Below are positions 45,743 through 62,266 of a DNA stretch of 64,000 nt, piece after piece. The first letter of the stretch is position 1. Each line of letters begins with the position of its first letter. A program made the translations under genes and the position numbers. This stretch comes from Syncephalis fuscata. Lineage: Eukaryota; Zoopagomycota; Zoopagomycetes; Zoopagales; Piptocephalidaceae. The notes under the pieces were generated by a model. It made no database searches. It worked only from the letters and a program-made list of their open reading frames with translations, and was not told the DNA's origin. Location of the stretch: assembly GCA_025786725.1 (NCBI GenBank), contig JAHLTZ010000020.1, forward strand, positions 62,001 through 126,000. The letters run 5' to 3'.

Positions 45743-48700
45743 ATGCAACTTTCTATTGCCGCTGTCTGCACCTTCATCGTGGCCCTTGTAGCCAGTACAG
45801 CCATGGTAGATGCTATGCCAACTCCAGCCCATATTGGTAGGTTGTAATTACAATAAATATGTCAATTGATATACTCATAAACACTATGAATGATCAATAA
45901 CGATATTAGCCGGTAAGTTGTGATTAAGGACCAATGATACTGTACTCACCGTATGTCATAATGTGCATTGTAAACATGATAAACATTACTGTGTTAATTA
46001 AATTAAATTAGATCCACCAAAGCAAAGTAAGTTTAGCATAAAATAGAAAACTAAAGTCTAAGTCGAAAATGCCGATATACTGAACTTACAACAATAGCTG
46101 GTAAGTGACATTATATGTTAGTTAGCAATGCACTAAACAAACATTGTATATTGTGCGTTTAAAAACGTGTTAATAGAGGGTAAGTGACATTTTATAGCAA
46201 TCAGCTATGCACTAGAAATGTATCATGCATCGTGTGTTTAATCATTTTTCTTAATAGATGGTAAGTGGCATTAAATAGCAACCATACACTAAACATATGC
46301 CATATACTTAATAACCATGTTAATAGAAAGTAAGTAGAATTGCATTTTTTTTATTTTGAAGAGCTTGTGAGCCCCTTGCACATAATTAAAGAATTTGCGC
46401 TGTTTTCCACTATTTCTGGACTTTTCCAAAGTATTGGGTGGACTGCCACGTTATTGCGCAAAATTCGATCCATATAGCTTTTATGCGGGGGCATCTTCTT
46501 TTTGAATGGTGCTTTACGCAGCGCTATTCTCTTAAAGTTGGTTTCAATTGGTTTTTTCTCGGCTATTGTGGCCAAAGTCTTGTTTCAGGCCTACTTGTTT
46601 AAACTGATTGCTGGTATAGCATATTAACCAGCTATGCACTAACCATATGCCATAAACCGTATGTTTACTAATTATGTTAATAGATCGTAAGTGTTATTGT
46701 ATGTTAATCGGCTATGCACTAAACATATATTGTGTACTATATGATTAATAATTACGTTAACAGAGTGTAAGTGACATTGTGTAGCGATCGAATATTTACT
46801 AAACATACATCATATACCATGTGCTTAATGATTTGTGTTAATAGATGGTAAGTGGCATTCCGCATTAATTAAATATGCACTAAACATCTAACATACGCTG
46901 TGTACCTAATAACTTGTTAATAGAATGTAATTGACATTTGTATTAAATAACTATTCACTAAACATATCCCATACATTGCTTGTTTAATACCTTGTGTTAA
47001 TAGCGCGTAAGTAGCATTGTATATCAATTAACTATTTACTAAATATATACCTTGTATTGTTTATTTAATAATTTGTATTGATAGTTTGTAAGTAGTATTG
47101 CATATTAATCAGCTATGCGCTAAGCATATATATACTCTGCATGCTTAATAATCTGTGTTAATAGGGAGTAAGTGACATTTTGTGTTAATAGTGTGTAAGT
47201 GATATTTTGTGTTAGTCAGCTATGCACTAAATATATGACATGCACTGTATGTTTAATAATTTATGTTAATAGGGAGTAGATGACATTGTATATTAATCAA
47301 ATCTTCACTAAACACATTTCCCGCAACTTTTATTTTAAAACTTGTGTTAACAGTTGGTAAGTGGAATTTCATATCAATTAACTATGCACTAAGCCCATAT
47401 TACATAATATCCAATTACCAAATTATGTTAATAGTCTGTAAGTAACACTAATTATTAGCCAATTATTAACTAATTATGTATCATGTACTCTGTGCTTAAT
47501 AAGTTTTGGCGTTACTTAGTAAGTGAGATTACATATCAATCAGCCATGCGTTAAACATATAGCATAAATTGCGTGCATAATACTTGTGTTATTAGTTTGT
47601 AAGTATTATTACGTGTTAATTGGATATGCACTAAACATATACCATGCACTGTATGTTTAATAACATGTGTTATTAGTGCGTAAGTGATATTTCGTATTAG
47701 TCAGTTATGTATTGAATATATAACGTGCACTGTGTGTTTGATAATTTGCGTTAATAGAGGGTAAGTAACATCGCATATCAATTAACTATGCATTAAATAT
47801 TTCCATACATCACATGTTTAATAATATGTATTAATAGCTGGTAAGTGAGATTATATATCAATCAGTTATATACTAAATACATACCATGCACTATGTGTTT
47901 AATAACACGTTAATAGGAAGTAAGTAATACCGCATACTAATCAGCTATGCACTAACTATATACCATGTACTATTTGTTTAATGATTTGCAATAATAGATC
48001 GTAAGTGGCATTTTATATCAATCAGCTATTTGCTAAACATATACCATATACCATATTTTAATAACACGTTAATAGAAAGTAAGTGATACCACATACTAAT
48101 CAGCTATGCACTAAATGTATGCCATGAAATGTATGTTTAATGATTTGTGTTAATAGACCGTAAGTGGTATTGTGTATCAATTAGCTATGCACTAAACATA
48201 TGTTGCGTACTGTGTGCTCAACAACTTGTGTTAATAGGTCGTAAGTAGTATTGTGCTCTAACTAACTATGCACTAAATATATATCATACGCTGTGTGTTT
48301 AATAACCTTTGTTAATAGAATGTAAGTAGCCTTTTCTATCAATCAACTGTACGCTAAATATATGCCATACACTGTGTGTTCAATAATTTGTATTAATAGC
48401 CGGTAAGTAGCATCTTATATCAATCATTTATGTACTAAATATATAATATGCATTATTTGTTTAACAACTTGCATTAATAGAATGTAAGTGACGTTACTAT
48501 TAGCCAAATATTTACTAAACATATATTATGTACTGTATGCCTACTAACATGCCTTAATAGCTAGTAAGTGGCGTTGTATACTAATCAACTATACACTAAT
48601 ATATACATTGCGTTGCTAATTTAATAACATGTATTAATAGCTCGTAAGTTACATTGCATATTAATTAGCTATACATTAAATATATACGTGTGCTTTGTGT

Positions 48701-50553
48701 TTAATAACCTTTGTTAATAGAATGTAAGTAGCCTTTTCTATCAATCAACTGTACGCTAAATATATCCATACACTGTGTGTTCAATAATTTGTATTAATAG
48801 CCGGTAAGTAGCATCTTATATCAATCATTATGTACTAAACATATAATATGCACTATTTGTTTAACAACTTGCGTTAATAGAATGTAAGTGACGTTACTAT
48901 TAGCCAAATATTTACTAAACATATATTATGTACTGTATGCCTACTAACATGCCTTAATAGCTAGTAAGTGGCGTTGTATACTAATCAACTATACACTAAT
49001 ATATACATTGCGTTGCTAATTTAATAACATGTATTAATAGCTCGTAAGTTACATTGCATATTAATTAGCTATACATTAAATATATACCGTGTGCTTTGTG
49101 TTTAATAACTTTGTTAATAGAATGTAAGTAGTTTTTTATCAATCAACTGTACGCTAAATATATGCCATATACTGTGTGTTTAATAATTTGCAGTATTAAA
49201 TAGTAAGTAACATTGCATATCAACTAGCTATGCGTTAAACATTTCCATACATCGCCTGTTTAATAATTTGTAATAATAGGAGGCAAGTAATGTTATATTT
49301 TAATTGGCTATGTATTAAGCATATCTCATGCATTATTTGTTTGACAATTTGTAAAAATAGGTCGTAAGTGACATTGTCTATTAAAGGACTATTCACTAAC
49401 TATATAACATGCACTATTTGGTTAATAATTTGCGGTAATAGGTGGTAAGTAGTATTTTATATCGATCAGTTCTATGTTAAACATATACCATATACCATAT
49501 TTTAATAACACGTTAATAGGACGTAAGTGATACCGCATACTAATCACTATGCACTAAATGTATGCATGAACTGTATGTTTAATGATTTGTGTTAATAGGC
49601 CGTAAGTGTTATTGTGTATCAATCAGCTATGCACTAAACATATGTTGCGTACTGTGTGCTCAACAACTTGTGTTAATAGGTCGTAAGTAGTACTGTGTTC
49701 TAACCAACTATGCACTAAATATATATCATACGCTGTGTGTTTAATAACTTGTGATAATAGGTCGTAAGTAGTACTGTGTTCTAACTAACTATGCATTAAA
49801 TATACATCATACGCTGTGCGTTTAATAATTTGTGATAATAGGAGGTAAGTGACATTGTATATTAATCAACTCTATGTTAAGCATATATTATATACTGTAA
49901 ATTTAATAACTTGTGATAATAGGAGGTAAGTAGCATCTTATAACAATCATTTATATACTAAATATATAATATGCACTATTTGTTTAATAACTTGCATTAA
50001 TAGAATGTAAGTGACGTTGTCTACTGGCCAAATATTTACTAAACATACACCATGAATCGTGTTTAACCTGTAATAATAGATCGTAAGTGGCATTGTATAT
50101 TATTAGCTATGTACTAAATATATGCCATGCACTATGTACTTAATAACTCGAATTAATAGATGGTAAGTAGAATTGTACACTATCCAGTTATGCACTAAAA
50201 TATGCCATGCACTTTATGTTTAATAATCCATGTTAATAGCAAGTGAGTAATATTATATGCTAATTAGTTGTGCATTAAACCACATCATGTGCTATGCGTG
50301 TTTTATAATCTGTATTTATAGTTTGTAAGTAATATTGTGTATTGCTACTTTATAAACTAATTATATGACATGTATTGTATATTTATAAGCATAAATTAAT
50401 TGGCACCTTCAAGGCATTGGCGCTGGCTGTATAACTGGGCTATCATTTCTATACACTTTAAGTATAAATTTGGTAAAAAGATCATTTGACAACTACCGTT
50501 TAGTCCATGCATTTACCAAGTTTCAGCCAGTGTCCGGTCTATCCAATTTCTAA
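45743..50553 (+). CDS. Secreted protein encoded by a 54-exon gene with 50 three-nucleotide microexons
   Basis: Exon 1 (45743-45836) encodes MQLSIAAVCTFIVALVASTA plus MVDAMPTPAHI, a clear signal peptide, and ends one base into a codon. Fifty-two tiny exons follow: fifty of 3 nt, one of 15 nt (46012-46026) and one of 9 nt (49194-49202). Each is bounded by AG and GT (one GC). The last exon is 50414-50553. Every intron is phase 1, so each array codon takes its first base from one exon and its other two from the next. The total is 408 nt, or 135 residues and a stop. No stop codon arises across more than 50 junctions; in phase 0 the 9-nt exon, and in phase 2 joins such as atg-aaa, would create stops. 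The peptide includes PPKQTEDENQYESL, a duplicated QSEST, and NRGRGRRRRGEY. The final exon reads CIGAGCITGLSFLYTLSINL and ends GLSNF. No family is recognised. Direct splicing of exon 1 to the last exon would also be in frame. Confidence 0.8.
46345..46600. mobile_element. Non-repeat insertion inside one array intron
   Basis: The intron 46330-46683 is 354 nt instead of about 77, because about 260 bp unlike the repeat interrupts it. The minus strand of the insert is open for 74 codons (basic, with KKPIETNFKRIALRKAPFKK), but I recognise no family. It may be a fragment of a mobile element or captured DNA. The flanking splice sites remain intact, so the insertion need not change the mRNA. Confidence 0.45.
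47438..47595 (+). other. Defective unit (no acceptor) giving a double-length intron
   Basis: At 47516-47518 the triplet tta precedes GTAAGT, but the usual TTAATAG is replaced by a sequence ending GTTAC, with no AG. This unit should be skipped, leaving a 158-nt intron. Loss of one 3-nt exon does not shift frame. Confidence 0.7.
48302..49103 (+). repeat. Recent duplication of a five-unit block within the array
   Basis: Positions 48302-48703 and 48704-49103 are nearly identical copies of about 400 bp, each carrying the triplets aat, ccg, aat, cta, ctc. In the predicted protein this doubles the pentapeptide QSEST. A diverged start of a third copy follows at 49121. Confidence 0.93.
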
Positions 50554-59294: not shown

Positions 59295-62266
59295 GGGAAG
59301 ACGAAGAAAAGAAATATGTTTGAGTGGATAATAGTGTACGAAGAACAAGAGTAGAGGGGAAAAGCAATAAAGTCAATATAATAACTATAGTATTATAACT
59401 ACTATGGCTATAAACAAATAGTAAGTATTGAAAGTCCAGAATAATAATAAGAAGAAGAAAAGAAAAGAAACTATATAGTTATTATAGAATATAATAAATA
59501 GATCGATCCACACTAATAGTAAAATAGTAACAAATCGATCTTTTTACTTATACGAAAGCCTTTTCAGTACAATTATAATGGTTACCCAATAGGCCCACAT
59601 ACTAGTGTGTAACCGAGATTGATCCAATAAATAGTAAAAGATTATTCAATTATTACGTCTACTTTTACTACTATAGCTATTACTATAGCTATTATATACA
59701 ACTATAATCATCATATCCATTATTAAAAGTAATAAACCAGCCCATCAATCCATCTTACTCAGTACAACGTGGGATTTTATGATGGATGTGGTGGTAAAGG
59801 AATGGCGTGTTATTGTTTTGTCACCATTATTTATAACTGAAAGGGGCAAAGGAGAAATGATGAAAAATACTATAGAAAAGGATAGGGAAAATAGTCAACC
59901 CACCCATTACATCACACTTTGTAAAAATACCGAATATATTGATAATAGTTGTTGTTATCAACACATACAATACTATTAAATACACGCTAAATACTTGTGA
60001 TTCATCTACCATGTGGTTATTCTATAAGCATGACACTACTACTACTACTACCACCACTACTATCTCAATATCATGGTATTTCAATAGAATATCCAAAAGT
60101 GCATGTGGTAAAGCAATGTTTGATGAGGCCTTACAATGCATTATCTTTTGATTGACGCTTATCCTATCAATGGATAGAATGTAAATGGGGAATGTGTTTC
60201 GCTGTCTATAGCTCAAAACAAAGATGGCTCATATCATTTGTTTCAGTGGTGAACGGGCCTTCCCTGCTTCTACTAGTTCAATAGAAATGTAGTATGCATT
60301 ATCGGCATATTATCACCAAATATCCGAGACACTTACTCATTGAATAGATATACTTTAGCAATAGACACTATTCAGGCAATAATAGTAGAAATAATAAATA
60401 TAGAATAGAGCTATACTAATAGATACAATCAAGGTATCAATCCTACTAATGACTGTGCCAGTAATGACGACAATAATGTACCATTAGTAGTAACAATCTA
60501 CAATGGCGTGGTTATAGAATAATAAAAGTCCAATTCATTCTATACTAAAATGGTATCCATTCTTATCACTCAAAGAAGTGCCATTAATTTAACCATCTAT
60601 TCAATTTAATCCATTCACTTCCATGCTATGTCGTCATATTATAACCAGTCCACCATTGAATGGATTCATACACACACATATACACACACATATACATACG
60701 CACACACATATATACATATATATACATATATACACACATCTATTGATGCCAAGTCTAATAGAAAGCATGCAACTACACATGCTATTTGCTATAACATATT
60801 GTGTAAACTAATAAACTAGAACAAGACGCGTACAAATCTATATATGTATAGACACTCTACGAGTTGCGCTTATATCATTTCAAATCATATTCTATTGACC
60901 CGAAATAGATATAAACACTAGCCAAACCAGGGCAATTACTTACAATGAATGCGGTCCAATAGTAACTAAATGTACTTTAAGTAATAGATTGCAGAGTTAA
61001 TCGAATGAACAATTGGAAACAAACAACGAAAAAGAATAAGTGAGCGTGGGATACGAGAATAAACGTGCTATAAAACTACGGATAAACTACGTCTATGCGG
61101 AGCAATTAGTGACTAGTTCACGTACAAACCACCACCACAACAACACTATAAAAGTGAAAGAGTAAGTGAGTGAGTGAGTGAGTAGTGTGTGTGTATGGGT
61201 AGGTGCGTTAACAGACTGCCTAGCTTGTTTGCTCGTTTGCTTGTTCGTTAACCGACAAGTTTACTAAGCCAACTATTGAATAACAAGGCAACAACAGCTC
61301 AAAAGAACACTGCTAACGCGTGCAGCCTCTCTTAGTGGCTTAACAAAACAGTACTCGTTGTATCGATTATTGATGAATAATATCAATAAAGAAAAAAGAA
61401 AACTACTTTTACTGCGTAACAACAGACAGCGCGCAATCTTACTACAGATGTTCAGCCGTCCCCATTGGACAAATGTCAACGGTAGCGAATCAAGTAGTGG
61501 GAGAGAAAGTGTTGATAGAATTGCACATACAAATTGTAGAATAGATGGTAGGAAAGACCAAAAGGGATTGTCGTACTAGAGTTTAGTGGATGTAGTAGTA
61601 GAGTAATGAGGGTCGAGTAGTAATAGAAAAGAAGAATATAGGCCCACAGTGACTACGAGTGAAGGTAAAAGAAAAACTCAAAACGATAGTTGCGCTCAGA
61701 TCTTTTACTCTCCTTAAACCGACTACCAGTTACCGATCAATGGTGACCTACATAGTTACTGAGTCTCAAGCATAATAGTCATTATTATTATTATTATTAT
61801 GTAGTTAATTCGTTTATTAATGATAGAATAGTGGTAATGGTGTATAATGGTAATGTGGCCATCTATCCATGTATCCATCCAGTACCTTACAGATCAATGG
61901 ATAGATGGATGAACTCACGCATTGATATATCTACATAGACATATACACACAAACCACATGCTATAAGTACAGCTATGGCATCAACGCGTGGCCATGGCTA
62001 TTATGATGGCCATCTACCATTTGTAAGATGAAACTTCAGGAGAACCATAGAATGACATCATACATGTTCCATGACCATCCTCGTACATGACGTCATTAAT
62101 CATAATAATTTAGTGTGACAAAAATATGACGTTGATCATGCCACCGTTTACACTAATGCTCATCATGTTACGCATACTTTATACAATTGATTCCTCACAT
62201 CAATCGATAAGTATCACAAATTTATTAGTCTTGTTCCAAGTATGCATTTGTGTAAAGGTGACAACT
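58448..62266. other. 3.8-kb gene-poor spacer with many simple repeats
   Basis: Repeats seen are (GTA)n near 58987-59032, (TG)n at 59262-59292, (ACT)n near 60030-60060, a mixed (CACATATA)n near 60670-60738, GAGT repeats near 61162-61184 and (ATT)n near 61781-61800. Open stretches over these are repeat artefacts. No RNA gene is recognised. The region upstream of 58447 probably holds the leader of the kinase gene. Confidence 0.6.
59262..59292. repeat. (TG)n microsatellite
   Basis: About 15 uninterrupted TG units in non-coding DNA. Confidence 0.95.

Follow-up and report, generated by a model that had tools for sequence, protein, structure and literature searches.

Can the body of a protein-coding gene be assembled from exons no longer than a single codon? 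The question is raised by a locus in the mycoparasite Syncephalis fuscata (assembly GCA_025786725.1), which lies on the forward strand between positions 62,001 and 126,000 of contig JAHLTZ010000020.1. This stretch of 64,000 nucleotides (nt) is the window referred to below, and positions are counted from its first letter. A 94-nt exon at 45743..45836 is followed there by a tandem array of units that resemble splice sites. An earlier note on this DNA had read the locus as a gene for a secreted protein, with a body of about 50 codon-length exons joined in the frame of exon 1. That reading is supported here by stop codon avoidance that is specific to triplet order, by cysteine codons and cysteine spacings that are likewise order-specific, by contiguous intronless paralogs, and by a deposited gene model with two 3-nt exons. 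Judged from sequence, the window gene very probably belongs to a large S. fuscata family of secreted prepropeptides that diverges rapidly and whose genes are built as arrays in which each unit carries a codon as its payload.

The array extends from 45910 to 50324 and contains 49 AG-NNN-GT sites, mostly spaced 76-82 base pairs (bp) apart. Two matches are omitted from this count, a spurious one at the exon 1 donor and a very poor one at 47520; the sites at 47165 and 47192 are both included. Most units read TTAATAG-NNN-GTAAGT and are repeated in tandem at about 80 bp each. The tandem array described in the earlier note is confirmed by these sites and by their abundance in the genome. In 28.95 megabases (299 contigs), the exact pattern TAATAG-NNN-GTAAGT is found at 2716 sites, compared to 5 for a reversed control. 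When spacers of 0 to 20 bases are taken together, there are 3054 sites and 281 in the control; the 20 spacer lengths other than three total only 338 and are therefore near the control level. The strict form is present in 367 of the 625 units of the array runs examined. If this share holds elsewhere, extrapolation gives about 4600 units genome-wide.

The signals that flank each triplet are those of introns. In pooled arrays from the window and 20 loci, the distance from an AG to a strong donor downstream is exactly 3 nt in 360 cases, and every other distance from 0 to 40 accounts for 27 or fewer. Bases 1 and 3 of the triplet have the lowest information content of 90 aligned columns (0.06 and 0.03 bits), and base 2 is rich in T (0.52 bits). 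The AG and donor columns carry 1.7-2.0 bits, which is partly forced by the search pattern, and the TTAATA before the AG, only slightly favoured by that pattern, carries 0.6-1.5 bits. The array introns are about 77 nt long and similar to one another (about 68-70% between units); their donors are almost invariably GTAAGT, and TTAATAG is the usual acceptor. Acceptor and donor are both complete in the arrays, with 3 nt between them.

The order of the triplets was examined in runs of at least four consecutive units on both strands of the loci examined, loci L001-L008 being left out before runs were made because they overlap other loci. Of the resulting 49 runs, 39 remain for the stop and cysteine tests after the removal of 10 near-duplicates, and these provide 499 junctions from 25 sources (the window and 24 loci). 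Joining neighbouring triplets in the frame of exon 1 creates a single stop codon at the 499 junctions. The expectation when triplet order is shuffled within runs is 20.6 ± 3.4, and all 5000 shuffles give more than one. The other junction frame (phase 2) has 48 stops, with 49.6 expected. Junctions that skip one triplet (24 stops in 460, 19.2 expected), two triplets (22 in 421, 17.8 expected) or three triplets (15 in 382, 16.4 expected) were counted as well, and triplets taken in reverse order give 20 stops where 20.6 are expected. When the 64 junction codons are ranked, depletion is strongest for the three stops and enrichment is strongest for TGT and TGC. Stop avoidance that depends on both order and frame points strongly to the joining of neighbours in order and in the exon 1 frame, and we see no other explanation for it. 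From patterns of this kind we infer, with considerable strength, that the triplets are spliced and translated. Readings in the two remaining phases were rejected: in phase 0, three triplets would themselves be stops (TAA in the window, TAG in L036 and TGA in L042), and in phase 2 the 48 stops fall across junctions.

Cysteine codons provide a second measure of order. Junction cysteines number 47 (26.7 ± 3.6 expected), and C-x3-C pairs number 13 (1.56 expected); in each case, none of 2000 shuffles is as high. The C-x4-C spacing is mildly raised (5 observed, 1.45 expected, P = 0.016), and the remaining spacings are not. Because each of these codons is split by an intron, the cysteines exist only once the RNA is spliced, and the C-x3-C spacing crosses four introns. 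The same spacing is the commonest in the mature regions of 19 intronless paralogs (38 instances; the next commonest has 18).

Some of these paralogs show the layout of the family in contiguous form. In L035, L040 and L046, an exon 1 homologue continues without interruption into a mature region rich in cysteine, which ends at a stop followed by the family's 3' block. The approximately 100 bp upstream of these three genes match array copies with best scores of 154, 117 and 150 (shuffled maximum, 35), so promoters are common to intronless and array copies. There are 20 more loci with long open frames (L050-L069), 16 of which have no donor at the end of exon 1. These loci were chosen for their long open frames, and the intronless share among them is therefore uninformative about the family. 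Intronless L058 aligns without gaps to the array gene L009 across exon 1, two ATG triplets, a 15-nt exon and the GA with which the next triplet begins. A 15-nt exon in the window has its positional counterpart in L009 and L012, where it corresponds to contiguous coding sequence in L058. In a comparison of array models with intronless mature regions that covered 19 of 33 models (14 were left out), 7 of the 19 match better than order shuffles at P < 0.05. The encoded peptides diverge fast.

Further members differ from these. No exon 1 donor is present in L056, L065 and L066, whose mature region is different and longer; in the deposited model of L056 (P0006), a single 66-nt intron lies close to the end. 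L071 (P0011) is a single-exon family member that is cysteine-rich. L072 (P0010), also a single-exon member, is long and rich in lysine and alanine, with EPLAKR after Arg-Arg. A structure model of an intronless member has a mean predicted local distance difference test score (pLDDT) of 60 and a predicted template modelling score (pTM) of 0.33, and it was not used.

One deposited gene model of an array member captures the beginning of this architecture. In the exact alignment to L059 that needs the fewest introns, model P0007 (BDF19DRAFT_453770) is divided into exons of 94, 3 (CCA), 3 (AAG) and 83 nt. Its 3-nt exons fall at predicted sites, and its 83-nt exon runs from the third triplet into the adjoining intron. 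Models P0002, P0003 and P0008 have no 3-nt exon. All four placed array-gene models (P0002, P0003, P0007 and P0008) end by the second triplet and then read intron sequence. Exact placement excludes P0001, P0004 and P0005, which have gapped alignments only, and P0009, P0012 and P0013, which are unplaced in the loci examined.

The window gene had been presented as a single gene, but it belongs to a family. A search with the exon 1 peptide yields 341 candidates, of which 150 were scored and all 150 matched, so the family occupies at least this many places, some of them broken. An alignment search (83 candidates) finds 13 family proteins, all from S. fuscata. Exon 1 is 94 or 97 nt long, with a phase 1 end, in 29 of 38 rows. 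Many paralogs end exon 1 in Arg-Arg, a dibasic, Kex2-like motif that is common in the family and not universal. The window copy has the conserved exon 1 and 3' block of the family; its exon 1 ends in PAHI, without Arg-Arg, and its sisters L014 and L015 end in AAHV. By eye, the predicted products of the family are of cysteine-rich, coiled-coil-like and proline-rich sorts.

Several individual copies may be mentioned here. L014 and L015 are near-identical array genes in inverted orientation, about 13 kilobases (kb) apart on contig C2, with about 40 exons each. L030 and L043 (C2:653240-659900) form an array of more than 70 triplets with a predicted coiled-coil-like product, and its likely exon 1 lies at C2:660557-660649. 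A further exon 1 match is found on the opposite strand at G000:C113:127042-127134, 1.0 kb past the end of the window.

How the window gene itself would be read can be followed from its first exon; all of its parts lie on the plus strand. Exon 1 (45743..45836) encodes a segment that looks like a signal peptide by eye and a short pro-region, and it ends in phase 1, after the first base of a codon. It is followed by the triplet CCG (45910..45912) and by a 15-nt exon, ATCCACCAAAGCAAA, which is flanked by TTAG and GTAAGT at 46012..46026. Four triplets (46098, 46177, 46258 and 46327) and their introns occupy 46098..46329. The next intron is 354 nt long (46330..46683) and contains a dispersed insertion of about 262 bp (about 46345-46606). 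This element begins with a run of T and by eye resembles a short interspersed nuclear element; relatives at 83-85% identity are found in L009, L011, L027, L028, L041 and L042. Seven triplets follow in 46684..47167 (46684, 46764, 46845, 46924, 47004, 47085 and 47165). An extra AG-TGT-GT site at 47192..47194 is the product of a 27-bp partial duplication. Since it stands only 24 nt past the previous donor, it is an alternative to 47165 rather than an extra exon; the two sites are 27 bp apart, and their joint use is impossible.

Farther along, the triplet GGA (47273..47275) has a TTAATAG acceptor and a weak donor, GTAGAT, and two triplets (47354, TTG; 47435, TCT) occupy 47354..47437. The unit at 47516..47522 is degenerate, having lost its usual acceptor AG, and its inclusion is uncertain. 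Twenty triplets (47596-49121) span 47596..49123. A second degenerate unit has lost its acceptor at about 49200, where a possible 9-nt exon, TATTAAATA, flanked by CAG and GTAAGT at 49194..49202, may replace the lost triplet. The array closes with 14 triplets (49280-50322) in 49280..50324. Elsewhere in the window, the introns of an ordinary gene also start with GTAAGT and measure 97 and 76 nt. A separate reading frame at 36413-37579 matches part of S. fuscata BDF19DRAFT_423500 with full identity from end to end, and its further hits include S. pseudoplumigaleata and S. plumigaleata.

A dynamic-programming model of the window gene contains 49 triplets and the one 15-nt exon (46012-46026). All 50 internal exons are thus multiples of three, and they contribute about 54 codons, as compared to 31 codons from exon 1. 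The description of the gene as 50 three-nucleotide exons is accurate for the 49 triplets; one exon, absent from the earlier note, is 15 nt long, and one may be 9 nt. No stop occurs at any of 44 window junctions, where 3.44 are expected with triplet order shuffled (P = 0.0087); the poor site at 47520 is counted here, as is each copy of an internal duplication. The continuous open frame claimed for the array holds at these junctions, but a direct join of 49121 to 49280 creates an in-frame TGA, which the 9-nt exon avoids.

The end of the gene was placed by comparison across the family. In 21 of 32 aligned 3' ends, an AG, two further bases and a stop stand in succession 65-84 nt past the last donor. 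In five, the AG is there and a stop falls within five codons; six fit neither description, and L037, among these six, is no 3' end. When DNA of intronless L046 is matched to family places (40 scored of 445 candidates), 37 of 41 match rows start at query 228-233, at the two bases that precede its TAA. Together, these match starts and AG-stop ends favour a stop at 50392-50394. The window's last exon likely starts at 50390, after TTATAAG, where CA finishes the last codon and TAA follows (50390..50394). The segment 50414..50553, a block conserved in the family, had been taken as the terminal coding exon. It does have an open frame in the phase claimed for it, but with the stop upstream it is probably the 3' untranslated region (UTR) of the same transcript. 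A downstream acceptor, TTTAG directly before GTATAT, was dropped because intronless paralogs set the stop upstream.

Comparisons among paralogs indicate how the arrays change. In 11 pairs, some of which have members in common and so are not independent, differences are found at 106 of 522 triplet bases, 1288 of 14,672 bases of intron interiors, 21 of 1108 donor bases and 18 of 1038 bases of exon 1. Triplet divergence between paralogs is about twice that of introns. In four more distant pairs, triplet positions differ by 0.39, 0.36 and 0.50, compared to 0.16 for introns. Triplets that change faster than the surrounding intron suggest diversifying selection, with the limit that misregistered units could inflate their apparent divergence. 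In the window, 48259-49190 contains an internal tandem duplication of about 400 bp with a 95% match, which comprises five codon and intron units, and thus this array has grown by whole units. A tree of exon 1 and the 3' block, with 31 array and 19 intronless rows (L026 and L037, which have no 3' block, and the second hits L013+ and L045- are not included), requires at least three changes between array and intronless forms on well-supported branches, and the fewest changes overall are seven.

These observations are accommodated by the following scheme. Exon 1 would encode the signal peptide and a short pro-region, usually ending in Arg-Arg, and the mature peptide would be coded almost wholly by 3-nt exons between repeated introns. 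The terminal exon would finish the last codon, supply the stop and carry the 3' UTR. Because the internal exons are multiples of three, with few doubtful exceptions, and start at codon position 2, every array codon is split by an intron. Introns would be recognised individually through their near-perfect signals, as three bases leave almost no room for a signal in the exon. The transcript would be made and fully spliced, probably by stepwise removal of introns, because two splicing complexes do not fit on a 3-nt exon at the same time. Arrays would lengthen through duplication of codon and intron units. A dibasic protease would release the secreted peptide from its precursor, and the peptides may act at the host-fungus interface under diversifying selection. 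That they act against host fungi, or inside them, is a guess based on the life style of the organism.

Several observations weigh against a family of working codon-payload arrays. One phase 1 stop persists, in L030. Of 33 automated models, four include an exon that is 1, 2 or 7 nt long, and the preferred last-exon stop is reached by only 15, several chains having ended early. L017, L019, L022, L023 and L036 are without a last-exon AG-stop. Exon 1 is frameshifted in L010, L021, L022 and L026, so some copies are decayed or misassembled. In the comparison with intronless mature regions, 12 of 19 array models do no better than order shuffles, and a search of the genome for a contiguous copy of the L047 and L032 peptides found neither. 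In the window copy, two units are degenerate and Arg-Arg is missing, and a protein search with its peptide matched no deposited protein.

The array could instead be one long intron with recursive splice sites, such that exon 1 joins the last exon, with the triplets either removed or present only as transient intermediates. The strong paired acceptors and donors that recur every 80 bp or so do look like recursive sites. In recursive splice sites, however, the AG adjoins the GT; in the window and 20 loci, a TAG or CAG directly precedes a strong donor once, compared to 359 times at a distance of three. Recursive splicing would not select against stops, or for C-x3-C cysteine codons, across adjacent triplets, and its product of 31 codons and a stop would be without the mature region seen in intronless paralogs. 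This explanation is therefore considered highly improbable. Even less credence is given to a tandem satellite, unexpressed or noncoding, that carries splice-like motifs by chance. The units are indeed tandem repeats, but such a satellite would account neither for order-specific stop avoidance and cysteine enrichment nor for the promoter and 3' block common to the family, the phase 1 exon 1 in 29 of 38 rows and the intronless coding paralogs.

Two further explanations accept that the family is real, and both are unlikely, if less so than those above. Exons might be alternatively included to yield many peptide variants per gene, as proposed for schistosome microexon genes. Symmetric internal exons would preserve register upon skipping, and duplicated sites such as 47165 and 47192 offer choices. 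Yet stops are not depleted at the skip-one and skip-two junctions (24 of 460 and 22 of 421, as given above), which implies that selection acts on complete inclusion; a minor alternatively spliced fraction may be compatible with these counts. Alternatively, the window copy itself might be a decaying pseudogene of a working family, which would fit its two lost acceptors, the missing Arg-Arg, the insertion in one intron and the failure to find a deposited protein. Decay is harder to reconcile with the stop-free junctions (0 of 44, P = 0.0087) and with a 9-nt alternative exon that avoids the sole stop. Moreover, the same inserted element is present in six other array loci, and the sisters L014 and L015 also lack Arg-Arg.

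For a functional family of single-codon arrays, the closest known systems are milder. Among the matches listed in a literature search, no title or abstract opening refers to this S. fuscata family or to a gene made of 3-nt exons in succession, and to this extent the earlier note's statement that there is no precedent at this scale is borne out. In Schistosoma microexon genes, about 80% of the coding region lies in short symmetric exons of 6-36 bp, and the products are secreted or exposed (PMC5825161). Likewise, most of the coding region of the window gene is in short symmetric exons, and the predicted products are secreted. In S. fuscata the exons are shorter than 6-36 bp: 49 of the 50 internal exons in the model of the window gene are 3 nt long, and one is 15 nt. 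Its introns repeat one another while the codon varies, growth is by unit duplication, and intronless paralogs exist. The two systems belong to different kingdoms and are compared by architecture, not by sequence.

Aphid bicycle genes, whose exons are longer than one codon, offer another parallel. The accessible portion of their description reports many small internal exons, almost all of which start at codon position 2, with about 17 exons on average; bicycle and megacycle products are putative secreted effectors, and megacycle genes have more than 100 microexons (PMC9168663). S. fuscata internal exons also begin at codon position 2, as judged by 29 of 38 exon 1 rows and by the stop test. They lie in a tandem intron array, and none is described for bicycle genes in that portion (PMC9168663). 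A fungal precedent for exons of this size is provided by the Dactylellina haptotyla lipS genes, which include two 3-nt exons (PMC5639578). In S. fuscata, dozens occur in a row across a large family. Stwintrons and recursive splicing resemble the arrays in having closely packed sites that need sequential use, which in S. fuscata is a prediction. Unlike stwintrons, each S. fuscata intron has its own complete sites and leaves a 3-nt exon behind, with no interrupted splice sequence; unlike recursive splice sites, the AG is not directly at the GT. Kex2-processed secreted peptides and C-x3-C helical-hairpin peptides combine a signal peptide, a dibasic site and a short cysteine-rich mature peptide. 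The S. fuscata family is like them by layout only.

The arrays seem to work like microexon and bicycle genes, yet the repeated-intron unit appears in neither, as far as the accessible portions of those accounts extend. We consider it likely that this is an undescribed architecture in which the intron is the repeat and a single codon is the payload, so that genes lengthen or shorten codon by codon through unit duplication. As parts of this same likely reading, near-perfect intronic signals would free the exon from constraint, such that every codon can diversify, and genes would switch repeatedly between array and intronless forms, perhaps via copy-back from their own spliced mRNA. The architecture could be regarded as categorically new; a stricter view would call it an extreme microexon gene.

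If this reading is correct, the thousands of exons in one genome would mean that a fungal spliceosome faithfully joins dozens of consecutive 3-nt exons. Consecutive exons would be able to shrink to one codon, and exon recognition would need rethinking. Sequential splicing by intron definition could be studied in these arrays as they occur in nature. It would also follow that annotation can overlook families of this kind; the four placed deposited models end within two triplets. The presence of intronless and one-codon-per-exon paralogs in one genome would make intron gain and loss directly testable, and for S. fuscata the arrays would constitute a new route to hypervariable secreted peptides.

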